Source: Piscinibacter sp. HJYY11 (GTDB taxonomy: Bacteria; Pseudomonadota; Gammaproteobacteria; Burkholderiales; Burkholderiaceae_C). From it: a stretch of 64,000 nt of DNA. Both the position numbers and the translations under genes were made by a program. The stretch spans positions 4,576,746 to 4,640,745 of the forward strand of contig NZ_JAERQZ010000001.1 in the NCBI RefSeq assembly GCF_016735515.1, read 5' to 3'. Within the stretch, counting starts at the first letter, position 1, and every line of letters begins with the position of its first letter. The notes under the pieces were generated by a model. It did no database searches. It was not told the origin of the DNA and was given only the letters and a program-made list of their open reading frames with translations. Positions 19,931-35,556 of this stretch are shown in pieces.

Positions 19931-22900
19931 ATGGCGAACTCAGTGCGTAGCGTCCTCATCGGGTCTGAATCTCTGCTGATCCAGTGCGGTCAGGTCCTCG
20001 AGCAGGCAGGCCACCAGATCGTGGCCGTGGTCACGACGCGCGCCGCCATCCGCCGCTGGGCCGCCGAAAAGGGCATCCGCGTGCTGGCCGACTCGGCCGC
20101 GCTGCTCGCCGCACAAGACATCCGCCCCTTCGACTACCTCTTCTCGATCACCAACCTCTCGGTGCTGTCGCCCGAAGTCATTGCGATGCCCACGCGCGCC
20201 GCGATCAACTTCCACGACGGCCCGCTGCCCGAGTACGCTGGTCTCAACACGCCCGTCTGGGCCATGCTCAACGGCGAAGGCCGTCACGGCATCACCTGGC
20301 ATGTGATGACCGACAAGGTCGACCAGGGCGACATCCTCGTGCAGCGCCGCTTCGATCTGTCCGAAGGCGAGACCGCACTCACGCTCAACACCAAGTGCTT
20401 CGAAGCCGGCATGGAAAGCTTCGAGGAACTGGTGAAGGGCCTCGCCGACGGCACGCTGCAAGGCCGCCCGCAGACCGAAGGCGTGCTGAAGTACTTCGGC
20501 CGCAAGGACCGCCCTGAAGCGGCTTGCGCCATCCGCTGGGACCAGCCTGCGTCGAAGATCGCGACGCTCGTGCGCGCGCTCGACTTCGGCACCTACGCCA
20601 ACCCGATCGGTGCGGCCAAGGCGCTCTACAACGGCCAACTCCTGCTCGTGCCGGAGCTCAAGCTGCTGGAAGACCGCTCGGGCCTGCCGGCCGGCACCAT
20701 CGTGTCGGTCAACGACGCGGCGCTGGTCGTCGCGACGGGTGACTTCGATGTGCAGATCCCCCGCCTCGAGACGCTCGACGGCAAGCCGCGCTTCCTCAAC
20801 TGCCCGGTGCTGAACCTGCGCAGCGGCGCCCGCTTCGAGGTGCTCGATGCGGCGGCAGCCGACCAGCTGAGCGCCATCAACGCATCGCTGGCCTCGCACG
20901 AAACCTTCTGGCTGCGCCGCCTCGAAACCCAGACCTCGCTCGAGCTGCCCTACATCGACCGCAGTGCCGCGCCGGTCGCCACGCAATGGCAGCAACTCGA
21001 CGCCGCGTTGCCGGCGGGTGACGCCGATGCGCGCATCGCCGCCCTCGTGGGCTACCTTGCACGCCTCACGGACAAGGATGGCTTCGACCTCGGCTTCGCC
21101 GACCCCGCGTTGCGTCGCGCCGTGGGTGCAGCGCCGGCCTGGTTCGCACAACAGGTGCAGCTGCGTGTCGCGCTCGACTTCTCGCGCGGCTTCGATGCGT
21201 TGCGCAAGGCCGTTGCCGACGAACTCACCACGCTGCGCAAGCGTGTGGGTTATGCCAGCGACATCGTCGCCCGCTCGCCCGAGCTGCGCACGGCGGCCGC
21301 CCAGAAAGACCCGCGGGTCCAGCCCGTGGCGCTGCTGATCGTCGACCAGCTCGACGATGCGGTCGCGCTGCCCGGCAGCGAACTCACCATCGCTATCACC
21401 GCCGATGGCACGCAAAGCCGCTGGATCTTCGACGCGGCCAAGCTGGCGCGCGGCACCGTATCGGCGATGCAGCAGCAAGCCGCCGAGCTGCTGAAGGCGG
21501 CCGAGGCCGATGCCTCGCGCGCCCTCGCCGAGCTGCCCCTGTGGGACGCCGCCGAGCGCAGCCGCGTGCTCGACCAGTGGAACGCCACCGACGCGCCGGC
21601 GCGCACCGATGCCTGCGTGCACCGCCTCTTCGAAGAGCAGGCCGCCCGCACGCCGAACGCCACGGCCGTGACCTGCGAAGACCAGTCGCTCACCTACGAC
21701 GAACTCAACCGCCGCGCCAACCAGCTCGCGCGCCGCCTCAAGTCGCTGGGCGTCGGCCCCGACGTGCTGGTGGGCCTGTGCGCCGAGCGTTCGGTCGAAA
21801 TGATGGTGGGCCTGATCGCCATCCACAAGGCCGGCGGCGCCTACGTGCCGCTGGACCCGAGCTACCCGAAGGACCGCATCGCCTACATGGTCGAAGACTC
21901 CAAGGTGCCGGTGCTGCTGACGCAGGACCGCGTGGAGTTGCCCAAGCACAGCGCCAAGGTCATCAAGCTCGACACCGACTGGGCCTCGATCGCCACCGAA
22001 TCGGCCGAACCCTTCGACGGAGGCGCCGAGCCGCAGCACCTGGCCTACGTGATCTACACCTCGGGTTCGACCGGCAAGCCCAAGGGCGTGATGGTCGAGC
22101 ACCGCAACGTCGTCAACTTCTTCGCGGGGATGGATCACCACCTCGGTGAAGACCGTGCCGGCACGTGGGTCGCCGTCACCAGCCTGAGCTTCGACATCTC
22201 GGTGCTCGAACTCTGCTGGACGCTCACCCGCGGCTTCCACGTCGTCATCGCGACCGGCGAAGAACGCTCCGGCGCCGCGCCGCGGGGTGCGGCCGCCGCC
22301 CGCCCGCTCGACTTCAGCCTCTTCTACTTCTCGGCCAACGAAGCCGAAGGCGAGGGCCAGGAGAAGCACGACAAGTACAAGCTGCTGCTCGAAGGCGCCA
22401 AGTACGGCGACCAGCACGGCTTCTCGGCCGTGTGGACGCCGGAGCGCCACTTCCACGCCTTCGGTGGCCTGTACCCGAACCCCGCCGTGGCCGGTGCCGC
22501 GATTGCCGCGGTCACCGAGCGCATCAAGATCCGCGCCGGCAGCGTCGTGCTGCCGCTGCACCACCCGCTGCGCGTGGCCGAGGAGTGGTCGGTCGTCGAC
22601 AACATCTCCAAGGGCCGTGTCGGCATCTCGTTCGCATCGGGCTGGCAGCCCAACGACTTCGTGCTGAAGCCGGAGAACTTCGCCGACAACAAGAACATCA
22701 TGCTGCGCAACATCGAGACCGTGCGCAAGCTGTGGCGCGGCGAGAAGTGCAGCTTCCCCGGTGCCACCGGCAACGAGGTCGAGGTGGGCATCCTGCCGCG
22801 CCCGGTGCAGAAGGACCTGCCGTTCTGGGTCACCTCCGCCGGCAACCCCGAGACCTTCATTGCCGCCGGCAAGCTCGGCGCCAACGTTCTGACCCACCTG

Positions 22901-34463: not shown

Positions 34464-35556
34464 GTGGCGCAATGCCGTCGAAGCCTTCAACGAGCGCATG
34501 CGAGCGGGCGGTTCCGGCTGGAGCTTCTACGTCGACCCGGTGCCCGACTGGATCCCGCCGCGCGACGGCCAGAACGTCTGGCGTGAGTACCACCTGGCGG
34601 TGGAAGACGGTGAAGCGGTGCGGGGCTGCTTTGCGCTGAAGCCGCAGGACTGGCTGATCAACGGCCAGGTCCAGGTCGTGACCGATTGGCAGGGCCCGTT
34701 TTCCGAAGGCGTGATCGACCCCCGGCACGGCATGCTGGGGCTGCGCATGATCCGCGACATGCTGAAGAAGCGCCCGCTGCTCTACAGCTGGGGCCATGGC
34801 GGCGACGACCAGCCGGTGGTGCAGATGCTGCGCAAGATGAACTGGCTGCTGCACCCCACGCCGTTCTGCCTGCTGGTGGCCAAGCCGTTCCGCTTCCTGC
34901 GTCTCAATGCCCTCCTGCGCCAGACCCCGGCCCGCCGTTTGCTCCTCGACCTCGGCGCCTGGACCGGCCTCGGCTGGCTGGGCCTGAAGCTCCTTCACCT
35001 GGGGCTGAAGCTGCGCGCCGGTGGCGGCGGCTTCAAGTCCAGGGCGATGGAAGTCCCCAACTTTGGCCCCTGGGCAGATGCGCTGTGGGAACGTTGCAAA
35101 GGCAGCTACAAGGCGATTGCAGTACGCGACGCGGCGTCGATGAACGCCCTGGCGCCCGAGGGGGCCTGGCCGCCGGTCACCCGGCTGAAGGTCGAGCGCG
35201 ACGGCCAGGTCATCGGCTGGGCGCTCGTCATGGACACCCGCATGCAGGGCGAGCACCGTTTCGGCGACCTGCACGTCGGCTCCATCGTCGACACCCTGGC
35301 GCTGCCGTCCCAGGCTGGCGAGGTGGTGCACGCTGCGACCCGGCACCTGGTGGCCAAGGGGGTCGACATCGTGGTCTCCAACCAGGCCCATCCCGAGTGG
35401 GCCAAGGGCTTTGCCCAGAATGGCTACGCCGTGTTGCCCGACAAACGCCTCTTTGCGATGTCTCCCCAGCTCCAGGAAGCCCTGGCCCCTTTCACGGAAG
35501 TGTCAAAGGGCCTGCATCTGACAAATATGGACGGTCACGGGCCGATGGCCCTGTAG
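34432..35556 (+). CDS. GNAT-like acyltransferase (FemAB/GNAT fold), putative
   Basis: 374 residues. The start at 34432 lies inside the end of the preceding GT2 gene. The first half (YHLAVEDGEAVRGCFALKP, GMLGLRMIRDMLKK, YSWGHGGDDQPVVQMLRKM) resembles a GNAT core. The second half (RLKVERDGQVIGWALVMDT, GSIVDTLALPSQAGEVVHAA) looks like a second GNAT-type domain. This two-domain plan recalls FemAB-like or polysaccharide-associated N-acyltransferases. A direct role could be moving an acyl or aminoacyl group from a carrier to a sugar amine. That is inference from context, and family assignment is tentative. Confidence 0.62.
   Translation: MAIQIVPHSAEWRNAVEAFNERMRAGGSGWSFYVDPVPDWIPPRDGQNVWREYHLAVEDGEAVRGCFALKPQDWLINGQVQVVTDWQGPFSEGVIDPRHGMLGLRMIRDMLKKRPLLYSWGHGGDDQPVVQMLRKMNWLLHPTPFCLLVAKPFRFLRLNALLRQTPARRLLLDLGAWTGLGWLGLKLLHLGLKLRAGGGGFKSRAMEVPNFGPWADALWERCKGSYKAIAVRDAASMNALAPEGAWPPVTRLKVERDGQVIGWALVMDTRMQGEHRFGDLHVGSIVDTLALPSQAGEVVHAATRHLVAKGVDIVVSNQAHPEWAKGFAQNGYAVLPDKRLFAMSPQLQEALAPFTEVSKGLHLTNMDGHGPMAL

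Follow-up and report, generated by a model that had tools for sequence, protein, structure and literature searches.

The genes from 19931 to 41104 of the DNA analyzed in this study, a window of 64,000 nucleotides from Piscinibacter sp. HJYY11 (NZ_JAERQZ010000001.1, 4,576,746 to 4,640,745; all coordinates below are positions in this window), are read here, on balance and with modest confidence, as a run that builds a non-sugar acyl decoration and places it on the repeat unit of an exopolysaccharide (EPS). Relatives of its assembly line in similar clusters of several other bacterial groups suggest that an outer polysaccharide may be decorated with an unusual chemical group. This reading draws on the EPS markers and the glycosyltransferase (GT2a/b) neighbors of related loci, the co-variation of NRPS and PKS, the co-occurrence of a GNAT-like protein with the NRPS, the double-GNAT fold predicted for that protein, its deacetylase neighbors and purifying selection.

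The run lies on the forward strand and begins with an NRPS of 1560 amino acid residues (19931–24613), in which Pfam and NCBIfam models identified Formyl_trans_N and Formyl_trans_C domains, an AMP-binding domain interrupted by a luciferase-like monooxygenase (LLM) domain, AMP-binding_C and a PCP. The LLM domain belongs to the MupA/Atu3671 family (518.4 bits against TIGR04020; cut-off of 244.45) and is inserted at what we take to be the interval between the A-domain core motifs A4 and A5. The specificity code of the A domain, DILQMGMIWK, was conserved among homologs and is presumably that for glycine, which supports the glycine unit put forward in a preliminary description of this DNA. The formyltransferase domain, whose N-H-D residues we assume to be catalytic, precedes the A-PCP, as in an F-A initiation module. 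N-H-D was found in 33 of 40 aligned NRPS rows, including that of the window, with two rows (L052 and G1058) representing one gene. The exceptions were NHN in G1080 and SNS in the second protein of G667, and the stretch was wholly or partly missing in G1056, G1063, G1051, G1055, and G1199.

Next to the NRPS is a type I PKS module of 2172 residues (24684–31202) with the Pfam domain order KS, AT, KR, DH, ACP, and TE. With their carrier domains, A and KS/AT modules and active-site motifs that were kept among the homologs compared and whose catalytic roles are assumed here, the two proteins form a type I hybrid NRPS-PKS assembly line, a type of machinery known from antibiotic biosynthesis. The TE carries a GxSxG motif; that this thioesterase could release a free acid was counted against the decoration reading. 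The PKS gene is followed by those for a crotonyl-CoA carboxylase/reductase (CCR; 31199–32434; 580.7 bits against the TIGR01751 equivalog model, cut-off of 378.55), likely for extender-unit supply, and for two family 2 glycosyltransferases identified by Pfam, GT2a (32431–33429), whose start was set by an ATGA overlap, and GT2b (33426–34463). The NRPS/PKS order, the CCR and the two GT2 enzymes had all been proposed before and were borne out by the domain matches, as was the ATGA coupling over 31199–33429 by overlaps at 31199, 32431, and 33426. Ethylmalonyl could not be retained as the settled extender. The CCR gene was adjacent only in close Burkholderiales relatives and G1149 and not in G607, G667, G586, and G659, and the AT motif was of the VAGHS or VAAHS type across homologs, with no clean split (VAAHS in the window). 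Of the glycine/ethylmalonate-type product proposed earlier, the glycine part is supported by the conserved code and the ethylmalonate part may be too narrow.

The preliminary description ended the unit at 35556, which splits it midway and overlooks an AurF-type protein, an ACP and a free A enzyme of the same run. Downstream of the double-GNAT gene (34432–35556) lies the gene for an AurF-type diiron protein (35638–36501; 151.3 bits against PF11583, cut-off of 29.6), a putative N-oxygenase judging from its sequence. Its candidate metal ligands, which are our assignment, were conserved across homologs, and comparison with PDB sequences returned two unrelated weak matches only. A free-standing acyl carrier protein of 83 residues (36531–36782), read from the sequence and not from Pfam, has homologs beside AurF and A genes in other genomes. 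The free-standing amino-acid adenylation enzyme (36782–38386) scored above the cut-off of TIGR01733 and has the code DLHSLCLIAK. It is neither DltA (245.6 bits against the equivalog TIGR01734, cut-off of 559.85) nor the exosortase A-associated acyl-CoA ligase (191.5 bits against TIGR03098, cut-off of 592.35). A WecG/TagA/CpsF glycosyltransferase (38383–39240; PF03808, and TIGR00696 above its cut-off), a polysaccharide deacetylase (39237–40100; PF01522) and a third family 2 glycosyltransferase, GT2c (40097–41104; PF00535), complete the run, with further ATGA overlaps at 38383, 39237, and 40097. The dN/dS values of the NRPS, PKS, CCR and nine block genes from GT2a to the deacetylase, GT2c being left out, ranged from 0.06 to 0.22, indicating purifying selection. 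None of five proteins gave support for membership in a defence system. An HAD-UbiA fusion of the PRK08238 family (41484–42920, forward strand; 654 bits, NCBIfam), also kept in L042, is possibly a polyprenyl-phosphate sugar donor enzyme; it marks the outer edge of the unit, and its membership is uncertain.

The GNAT-like protein (374 residues) had been described as such from its sequence and judged to fit a transfer step. Although no GNAT Pfam match was found for any of 33 family members at E up to 5, its predicted fold is a double GNAT, with two GNAT folds per chain (AlphaFold2 model, pLDDT 94), and in the PDB comparison N-myristoyltransferase (NMT) structures matched the model along residues 1–370. 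The predicted fold thus supports both the name and a role as an acyltransferase. The C-terminus is conserved as DGHGPxxx-end. Comparison of the family profile with PDB sequences gave no credible match, and an internal repeat between the two halves was not significant. No match to the gene was found in 72,556 plasmid records, which gives no support for a plasmid home. Of 17 loci with the GNAT-like gene, 9 encode a deacetylase-type protein next to it.

Comparison with relatives upheld the association of the assembly line with EPS genes. At least one EPS marker was found in 25 of 41 NRPS regions, many of which are on short contigs, and at least two kinds of markers in 20 of 41. Among regions of at least 25 kb, 18 of 22, as counted by eye, contained a marker, compared with none of the 10 type I PKS regions used as controls, which came from 10 of 24 genomes with non-orthologous PKS matches. 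The outcome named earlier as refuting, an assembly line that lies mostly outside EPS loci in relatives, was thus not seen. The marker queries were Wza from G1210, the sugar transferase from G586, Wzy from G1059, Wzz from G1053 and others from the window, G600, and G586. Some of them come from tested regions; after removal of self-matches, G1210, G586, and G1053 keep another marker. WecG served as both a marker and a block gene, and G1062 and G1056 showed no other marker; when these two were dropped, the counts were 23 of 41 and, for long regions, 17 of 22 (Fisher, 0.001 and 5e-5 vs. 0 of 10), with loci of the same genus not being independent. The long regions without a marker were those of G1137, G730, G659, and G1199, and were counted against the decoration reading. 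Moreover, NRPS, adjacent PKS and EPS-type matches were present in all eight alphaproteobacterial plasmid loci fetched (8 of 17 qualifying records, 12 of which were listed), the EPS matches being weak in L239. No GNAT, AurF or small-ACP match was found in these eight loci. Thus, the second gene set is unnecessary for the first.

The genes of the run also travel together. Of 32 loci with both NRPS and PKS, 17 had a GT2a/b homolog at a distance of no more than 8 kb, compared with 1 of 12 loci with NRPS only and 0 of 10 controls. NRPS and PKS distances co-varied (r = 0.81 for 31 loci; 0 of 2000 permutations). A PKS was not seen within 20 kb in 12 of 44 NRPS loci, some on short contigs, which likewise was counted against the decoration reading. 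All 13 genomes reached via GNAT-like loci had an NRPS match, the formyltransferase part being absent from 4 of these 13 best matches. Among 235 genomes, all 8 strong GNAT-positives fell within the 23 NRPS-positives (hypergeometric, 2e-9; 2e-8 without the center genome), where the samples from the NRPS and GNAT-like searches were treated as one draw on account of their matching genome labels and sizes, and a ninth GNAT match (G1269, E 9e-7), outside the 23, was dropped as weak. The eight genomes are scattered over the NRPS tree. The NRPS threshold was 1e-150 for these two counts and 1e-220 for those in the genus and family.

On the reverse strand, wzx, wzy, xrtB, epsG, epsF (Wzz), epsD, and epsI (1931–10994; Pfam and NCBIfam) form an exosortase B EPS locus. 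XrtB (4895–5791) scored 298.3 bits against TIGR03113 (cut-off of 275), EpsD 225.2 bits (cut-off of 108.9) and the B-type EpsI 253.3 bits (cut-off of 220). The exosortase B setting claimed earlier holds at this locus and in the genus, where a close XrtB and the NRPS match co-occur in the same 6 of 11 genomes. It does not hold for exosortase B as a general partner, which was rejected: of six genomes tested from other genera in which the NRPS or PKS is present, four (G607, G586, G667, and G659) had no XrtB match at E 1e-20.

If the decoration reading is correct, the NRPS, whose code is observed, would load glycine, the nested flavin monooxygenase would oxidize the carrier-bound glycine, and its nitrogen would be formylated by the formyltransferase. 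The likeliest result would be an N-formyl-N-hydroxy-glycyl or oxime unit, with the order and chemistry of the two modifications being guesses. The PKS would then add one extender, ethylmalonyl here if it comes from the CCR, followed by reduction and dehydration, and the thioesterase would release the resulting short unsaturated amino-acyl chain or pass it to an acceptor. In some lineages, including that of the window, the free A enzyme might load the free ACP with a small amino acid, which the AurF-type enzyme would oxidize in its carrier-bound form. The deacetylase may free an amine on a lipid-linked sugar, which the double-GNAT enzyme may N-acylate from a carrier. The GT2 and WecG enzymes probably build the unit, and Wzx, Wzy, and Wzz probably export and polymerize it.

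Alternatively, and rather less probably, the product is a free small metabolite, such as a hydroxamate or oxime metallophore or a signal, whose production is regulated together with biofilm formation, its EPS neighbors reflecting shared use and not chemistry. The GxSxG motif of the terminal TE fits such a product, as do the naming of the TIGR04020 family after natural-product genes and the few NRPS loci (G730 and G1137) that lack an EPS marker and have other NRPS/PKS genes close by. In L041 (G1063/G1300), a member of the genus, no NRPS precedes the block from PKS to GT2c, and the sole NRPS match of this genome lacks the formyltransferase and is on another contig. L041 was counted against the decoration reading, and a little weight was therefore moved from it to the free metabolite. 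However, neither an exporter nor a siderophore receptor was found among the Pfam-annotated genes of 19931–41104, the EPS linkage recurs with GT2 partners in Alphaproteobacteria, Burkholderiales and the phylum of G1051, and a free metabolite leaves the deacetylase and the N-acyltransferase without a role.

It is quite improbable that the product is an aglycone, that is, a small acceptor glycosylated by the GT2 enzymes to give a secreted glycoconjugate or polymer primer. The GT2a/b homologs adjoining 17 of 32 loci, and the weak matches of GT2a/b to the rhamnosyltransferase family TIGR01556, below its cut-off, would suit an aglycone, whereas the chain from a single extension module is very short and polymer machinery of ordinary type (sugar transferases, Wzx, and Wzy) is present in many NRPS loci. 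A mobile natural-product cluster that landed by chance in a variable polysaccharide region is already disfavored and very improbable. In favor of chance, EPS regions are known to turn over their genes, and the line is unevenly distributed, with 6 of 11 genomes of the genus and 7 of 250 of the family having it. Against chance are the unmarked control regions, the recurrence of the pairing across phyla and on plasmids, the coupled reading frames and purifying selection.

Most work on NRPS/PKS lines treats them as sources of free metabolites. If this conserved pair serves polysaccharide assembly, genome-mining tools misfile such pairs, the EPS of biofilm bacteria holds an unrecognized class of substituent, the double-GNAT N-acyltransferases gain a family that neither Pfam nor NCBIfam has named and carrier-bound AurF-type oxidation is tied to a glycan. 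A wider proposal, which we regard as speculative and, taken whole, unlikely, is that in bacteria of several phyla an NRPS-PKS line dedicated to this purpose attaches N-formyl-N-hydroxyamino (hydroxamate-like) or oxime acyl groups to EPS repeats, accompanied in some lineages by an AurF-oxidized aminoacyl group that an NMT-like enzyme transfers; slime would then itself bind metals or be chemically armed in some other way. A culturable relative opens the reading to experiment. In the environmental relative Piscinibacter gummiphilus the NRPS match is at 97%, and the order of the genes is preserved on the G1296 contig.

No description of linked NRPS-PKS and AurF-ACP-A sets was found in the literature searched, and the available text of PMC11355689, PMC11340318, and PMC12609847 contains nothing on an NRPS-PKS/EPS system. 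Similar to the F-A initiation modules of linear gramicidin (LgrA), anabaenopeptilide and kolossin, the only three F-domain products described by 2022 according to the available text of PMC8949500, the NRPS of the window has a formyltransferase ahead of A-PCP, and LgrA chains were its best PDB sequence matches. Different from the LgrA type, its A domain is glycine-type with a nested flavin monooxygenase and is followed by a one-module PKS in an EPS locus. For the LLM part, the best-scoring solved chain was PuwE 6ket. In the available text of PMC7318616, where "formyl" does not occur, formation of the necroxime oxime from a glycine primer is attributed to OXY, DH, and MT domains. Necroximes, however, are free cytotoxins of a multimodular line, and the line of the window is short and lies among polysaccharide genes. 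The double-GNAT protein was 6% identical to N-myristoyltransferase and other double-GNAT enzymes, without a Pfam match, and would differ from them in taking its acyl group from a carrier and passing it to a glycan. In D-alanylation of teichoic acids, an envelope polymer receives the amino acid that the adenylation enzyme and small carrier of the Dlt system have charged. The free A enzyme and free ACP are partly alike, with DltA models among the best matches of the former, and what we take to be the membrane proteins of Dlt are replaced here by an oxygenase and a GNAT-fold enzyme. Finally, similar to the exosortase B or Wzx-Wzy EPS loci of Burkholderiales, the window contains xrtB, epsD, epsI, Wzx, Wzy, and Wzz.

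The window corresponds to positions 4576746–4640745 of contig C1 in the 5.6 Mb genome of Piscinibacter sp. HJYY11 (G000), in which the NRPS and PKS genes head a co-directional, plus-strand gene run ending at 41104. The NRPS (19931–24613, plus strand) consists of a formyltransferase (FT) domain, an adenylation (A) domain split by a luciferase-like monooxygenase (LLM) and a PCP, while the PKS (24684–31202, plus strand) contains KS, AT, KR, DH, ACP and TE domains in this order. After the PKS gene are those of CCR, GT2a and GT2b, which are joined by ATGA overlaps, and then that of a 374-aa protein (from 34432, plus strand) with a predicted double-GNAT fold. 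The preliminary description, in which the unit ended with this protein, was accurate for these genes, but the run extends past that point, with genes for an AurF-type protein, an 83-aa ACP, a free A enzyme (36782–38386), a WecG-type glycosyltransferase, a deacetylase and GT2c, in that order. Stop-start overlaps occur in this later part at 36780, 38383, 39237 and 40097.

Beyond GT2c are a HAD-UbiA fusion gene (41484–42920) and the genes of a PMT_2 protein and a methyltransferase. The fusion protein is of the PRK08238 family, which is related to decaprenyl-phosphate phosphoribosyltransferases, and has a 45% homolog on a Ruegeria sp. plasmid (L236, 26338–27738). To the left of the NRPS gene, wzx, wzy, xrtB, epsG, epsF, epsD and epsI are found on the minus strand. 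The stretch that separates the xrtB locus from the NRPS (11194–18630) encodes a SASA esterase, two right-handed beta-helix proteins and a pair of acyltransferase-3 proteins; the equivalent region of G600, a relative of the same genus, has three beta-helix matches. A group of genes at 55244–63939 (SIS, GHMP kinase, HAD phosphatase, GDP-mannose 4,6-dehydratase and epimerase) looks suited to supplying GDP-heptose or deoxyhexose for a polysaccharide.

The NRPS-PKS genes are linked to EPS genes across groups. When 41 NRPS regions, covering up to 20 kb per side, were surveyed for nine EPS marker classes, 25 had at least one class and 20 at least two, which bears out the earlier claim that this assembly line sits with EPS genes. 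Of the 22 regions at least 25 kb long, 18 had an EPS marker, compared with none of the 10 control regions, which surround different type I PKS genes in the same family (Fisher 0.004 for at least two classes; 2e-5 for long regions). Without two regions marked only by WecG, markers remained in 23/41 regions and 17/22 long ones. Representative neighbors of the NRPS include Wza-type, Wzz-type and 4'-phosphopantetheinyl transferase proteins, the last of which is uninformative, as it was also near 5 of the 10 controls. GT2a/b homologs were within 8 kb at 17/32 NRPS+PKS loci, 1/12 NRPS-only loci and 0/10 controls. Moreover, 17 plasmid records carry at least 80% of the NRPS. In all eight examined (Shinella, two Ruegeria, Aminobacter, Parasedimentitalea, Rhizobium, Methylobacterium and Neorhizobium), the PKS adjoins the NRPS with EPS-type matches around, those of Methylobacterium (L239) being just two of ~50 bits each; no GNAT, AurF or small ACP was found in these eight loci. 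Near the NRPS of G509, domain scanning identified a molybdopterin cofactor-binding-domain protein (L060, 15839–18238), whose cluster mates are near the NRPS in G600, G1127 and G1054; none was noticed in the window.

Within the genus, NRPS matches were found in 6 of 11 genomes. XrtB was 63–68% identical in the same five NRPS-positive relatives, whereas the other five genomes had only a 43–46% exosortase. The twelve genes from NRPS to GT2c are in the same order at 80–98% identity in G600, G1296 and G1301, where xrtB, epsI, epsD and wzx are at 34–69% and epsG at ~90%. The dN/dS values against G600 and G1296 were 0.06–0.22 for the eleven block genes other than GT2c and 0.10–0.33 for epsG, epsF and xrtB. 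In G1300, another of the six NRPS-positive genomes and, by match coordinates, the genome of L041, the sole NRPS match was FT-less, 54% identical and on a separate contig; in L041 the PKS-to-GT2c block is present, with no NRPS end ahead of the PKS. This genome is a Rhizobacter MAG (L041 1–330; G1063:C146), and its FT-less protein on the other contig is of the A-LLM-PCP type. The free A enzyme match of G1301 (L224) is in three pieces, which means that either the gene or its sequence is broken in this genome. Elsewhere in the family, the NRPS or PKS also turned up in genomes of other genera that have no XrtB.

The double-GNAT protein matched 612 proteins at E 0.001, and of 399 genomes in the order, only that of HJYY11 carried its gene. 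Scanning of named genomes yielded 17 loci (L040–L056) from Rhizobacter, Methylibium, Aquincola, several Myxococcota and other MAGs. In tblastn searches of these loci with the window proteins, some of the contigs being short, AurF matched at 12, the ACP at 13 and the free A enzyme (identity of at least 55%) at 11, and six carried part of an NRPS or PKS. A scan of part of the ORFs found a deacetylase or a DUF2334 protein at nine of the 17 loci. Between the best 120 GNAT and best 120 AurF homologs, the longest contig agreed in size in 19 cases, as expected if both genes often share contigs. Three far-apart copies of the double-GNAT gene are in the 10.3 Mb genome G1238 (L134, L135 and L136). A carbamoyltransferase gene lies between GT2b and the double-GNAT gene in L042 and L043; matches to it are also near the block in G1063, G1051, G1074 and G1256, with a cluster mate in G600.

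The two gene sets, NRPS-PKS and GNAT-AurF-ACP-A, co-occur with recurring physical links. All 13 genomes reached via 14 double-GNAT loci had an NRPS match (best matches 1097–2472 bits, FT part absent in four), against a background of 2/369 genomes in the class, counting that of HJYY11, under a more stringent cutoff. Of 235 genomes from the phylum to which G1051 belongs, 23 carried the NRPS and 8 the GNAT gene (E < 1e-100), all 8 being NRPS-positive (hypergeometric 2e-9; 2e-8 without the centre genome). The converse, however, does not hold: GNAT was found in only 2 of 17 genomes searched, 8 of which carry the NRPS, and in 4 of 19 further NRPS-positive genomes. GNAT-positive genomes were dispersed across the NRPS tree (FastTree). 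Among the recurring physical links, G1058 has PKS-NRPS with a divergent GT2-GNAT-AurF-ACP-A set, A and AurF are located between NRPS and PKS in G1059, and AurF directly precedes a second NRPS in G1054. In G1051, an FT-less NRPS, a carbamoyltransferase match, deacetylase, WecG and GNAT are consecutive.

All 40 aligned NRPS rows, including two that end before the last position, and all 8 plasmid loci share the A-domain code DILQ[MLYF]GM[IV]WK, a glycine code. The main PKS motifs were conserved in most rows. At the AT motif, the window reads VAAHS, and G600, G509, G1062 and L041 read VAGHS; given this variation, an ethylmalonyl extender rests mainly on CCR. In the TE of G607 and G506, Cys replaces Ser. 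The code of the free A enzyme was DL[HF]SLC[LI]IAK across 14 close rows, which include one incomplete row and two genes that appear twice, and differed in 4 distant rows. Another free A enzyme, distantly related (31% identity; code DLLSLALV), is found in L053 (14112–16811) and L055. In L053 it adjoins an acyl-CoA dehydrogenase, and an enzyme of that kind is also encoded in the window at 46837–48099. We infer that an acyl group may be transferred to a sugar amine, and the order of the reactions and the product are likewise inferred.

According to published work, F domains are rare and act on carrier-bound amino acids (PMC8949500), and an oxime on a glycine primer was attributed to oxygenase, DH and MT domains (PMC7318616). 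Floc formation in Aquincola has been linked to a sugar transferase of the PEP-CTERM system and a PEP-CTERM gene, in an article whose available part contains neither "polyketide" nor "ribosomal peptide" (PMC9850573). No description of an NRPS-PKS/AurF-ACP-A system was found in the literature searched. As read from the sequence, the monooxygenase insertion of the NRPS falls between motifs A4 and A5, a position shared with MtaG of myxothiazol biosynthesis.
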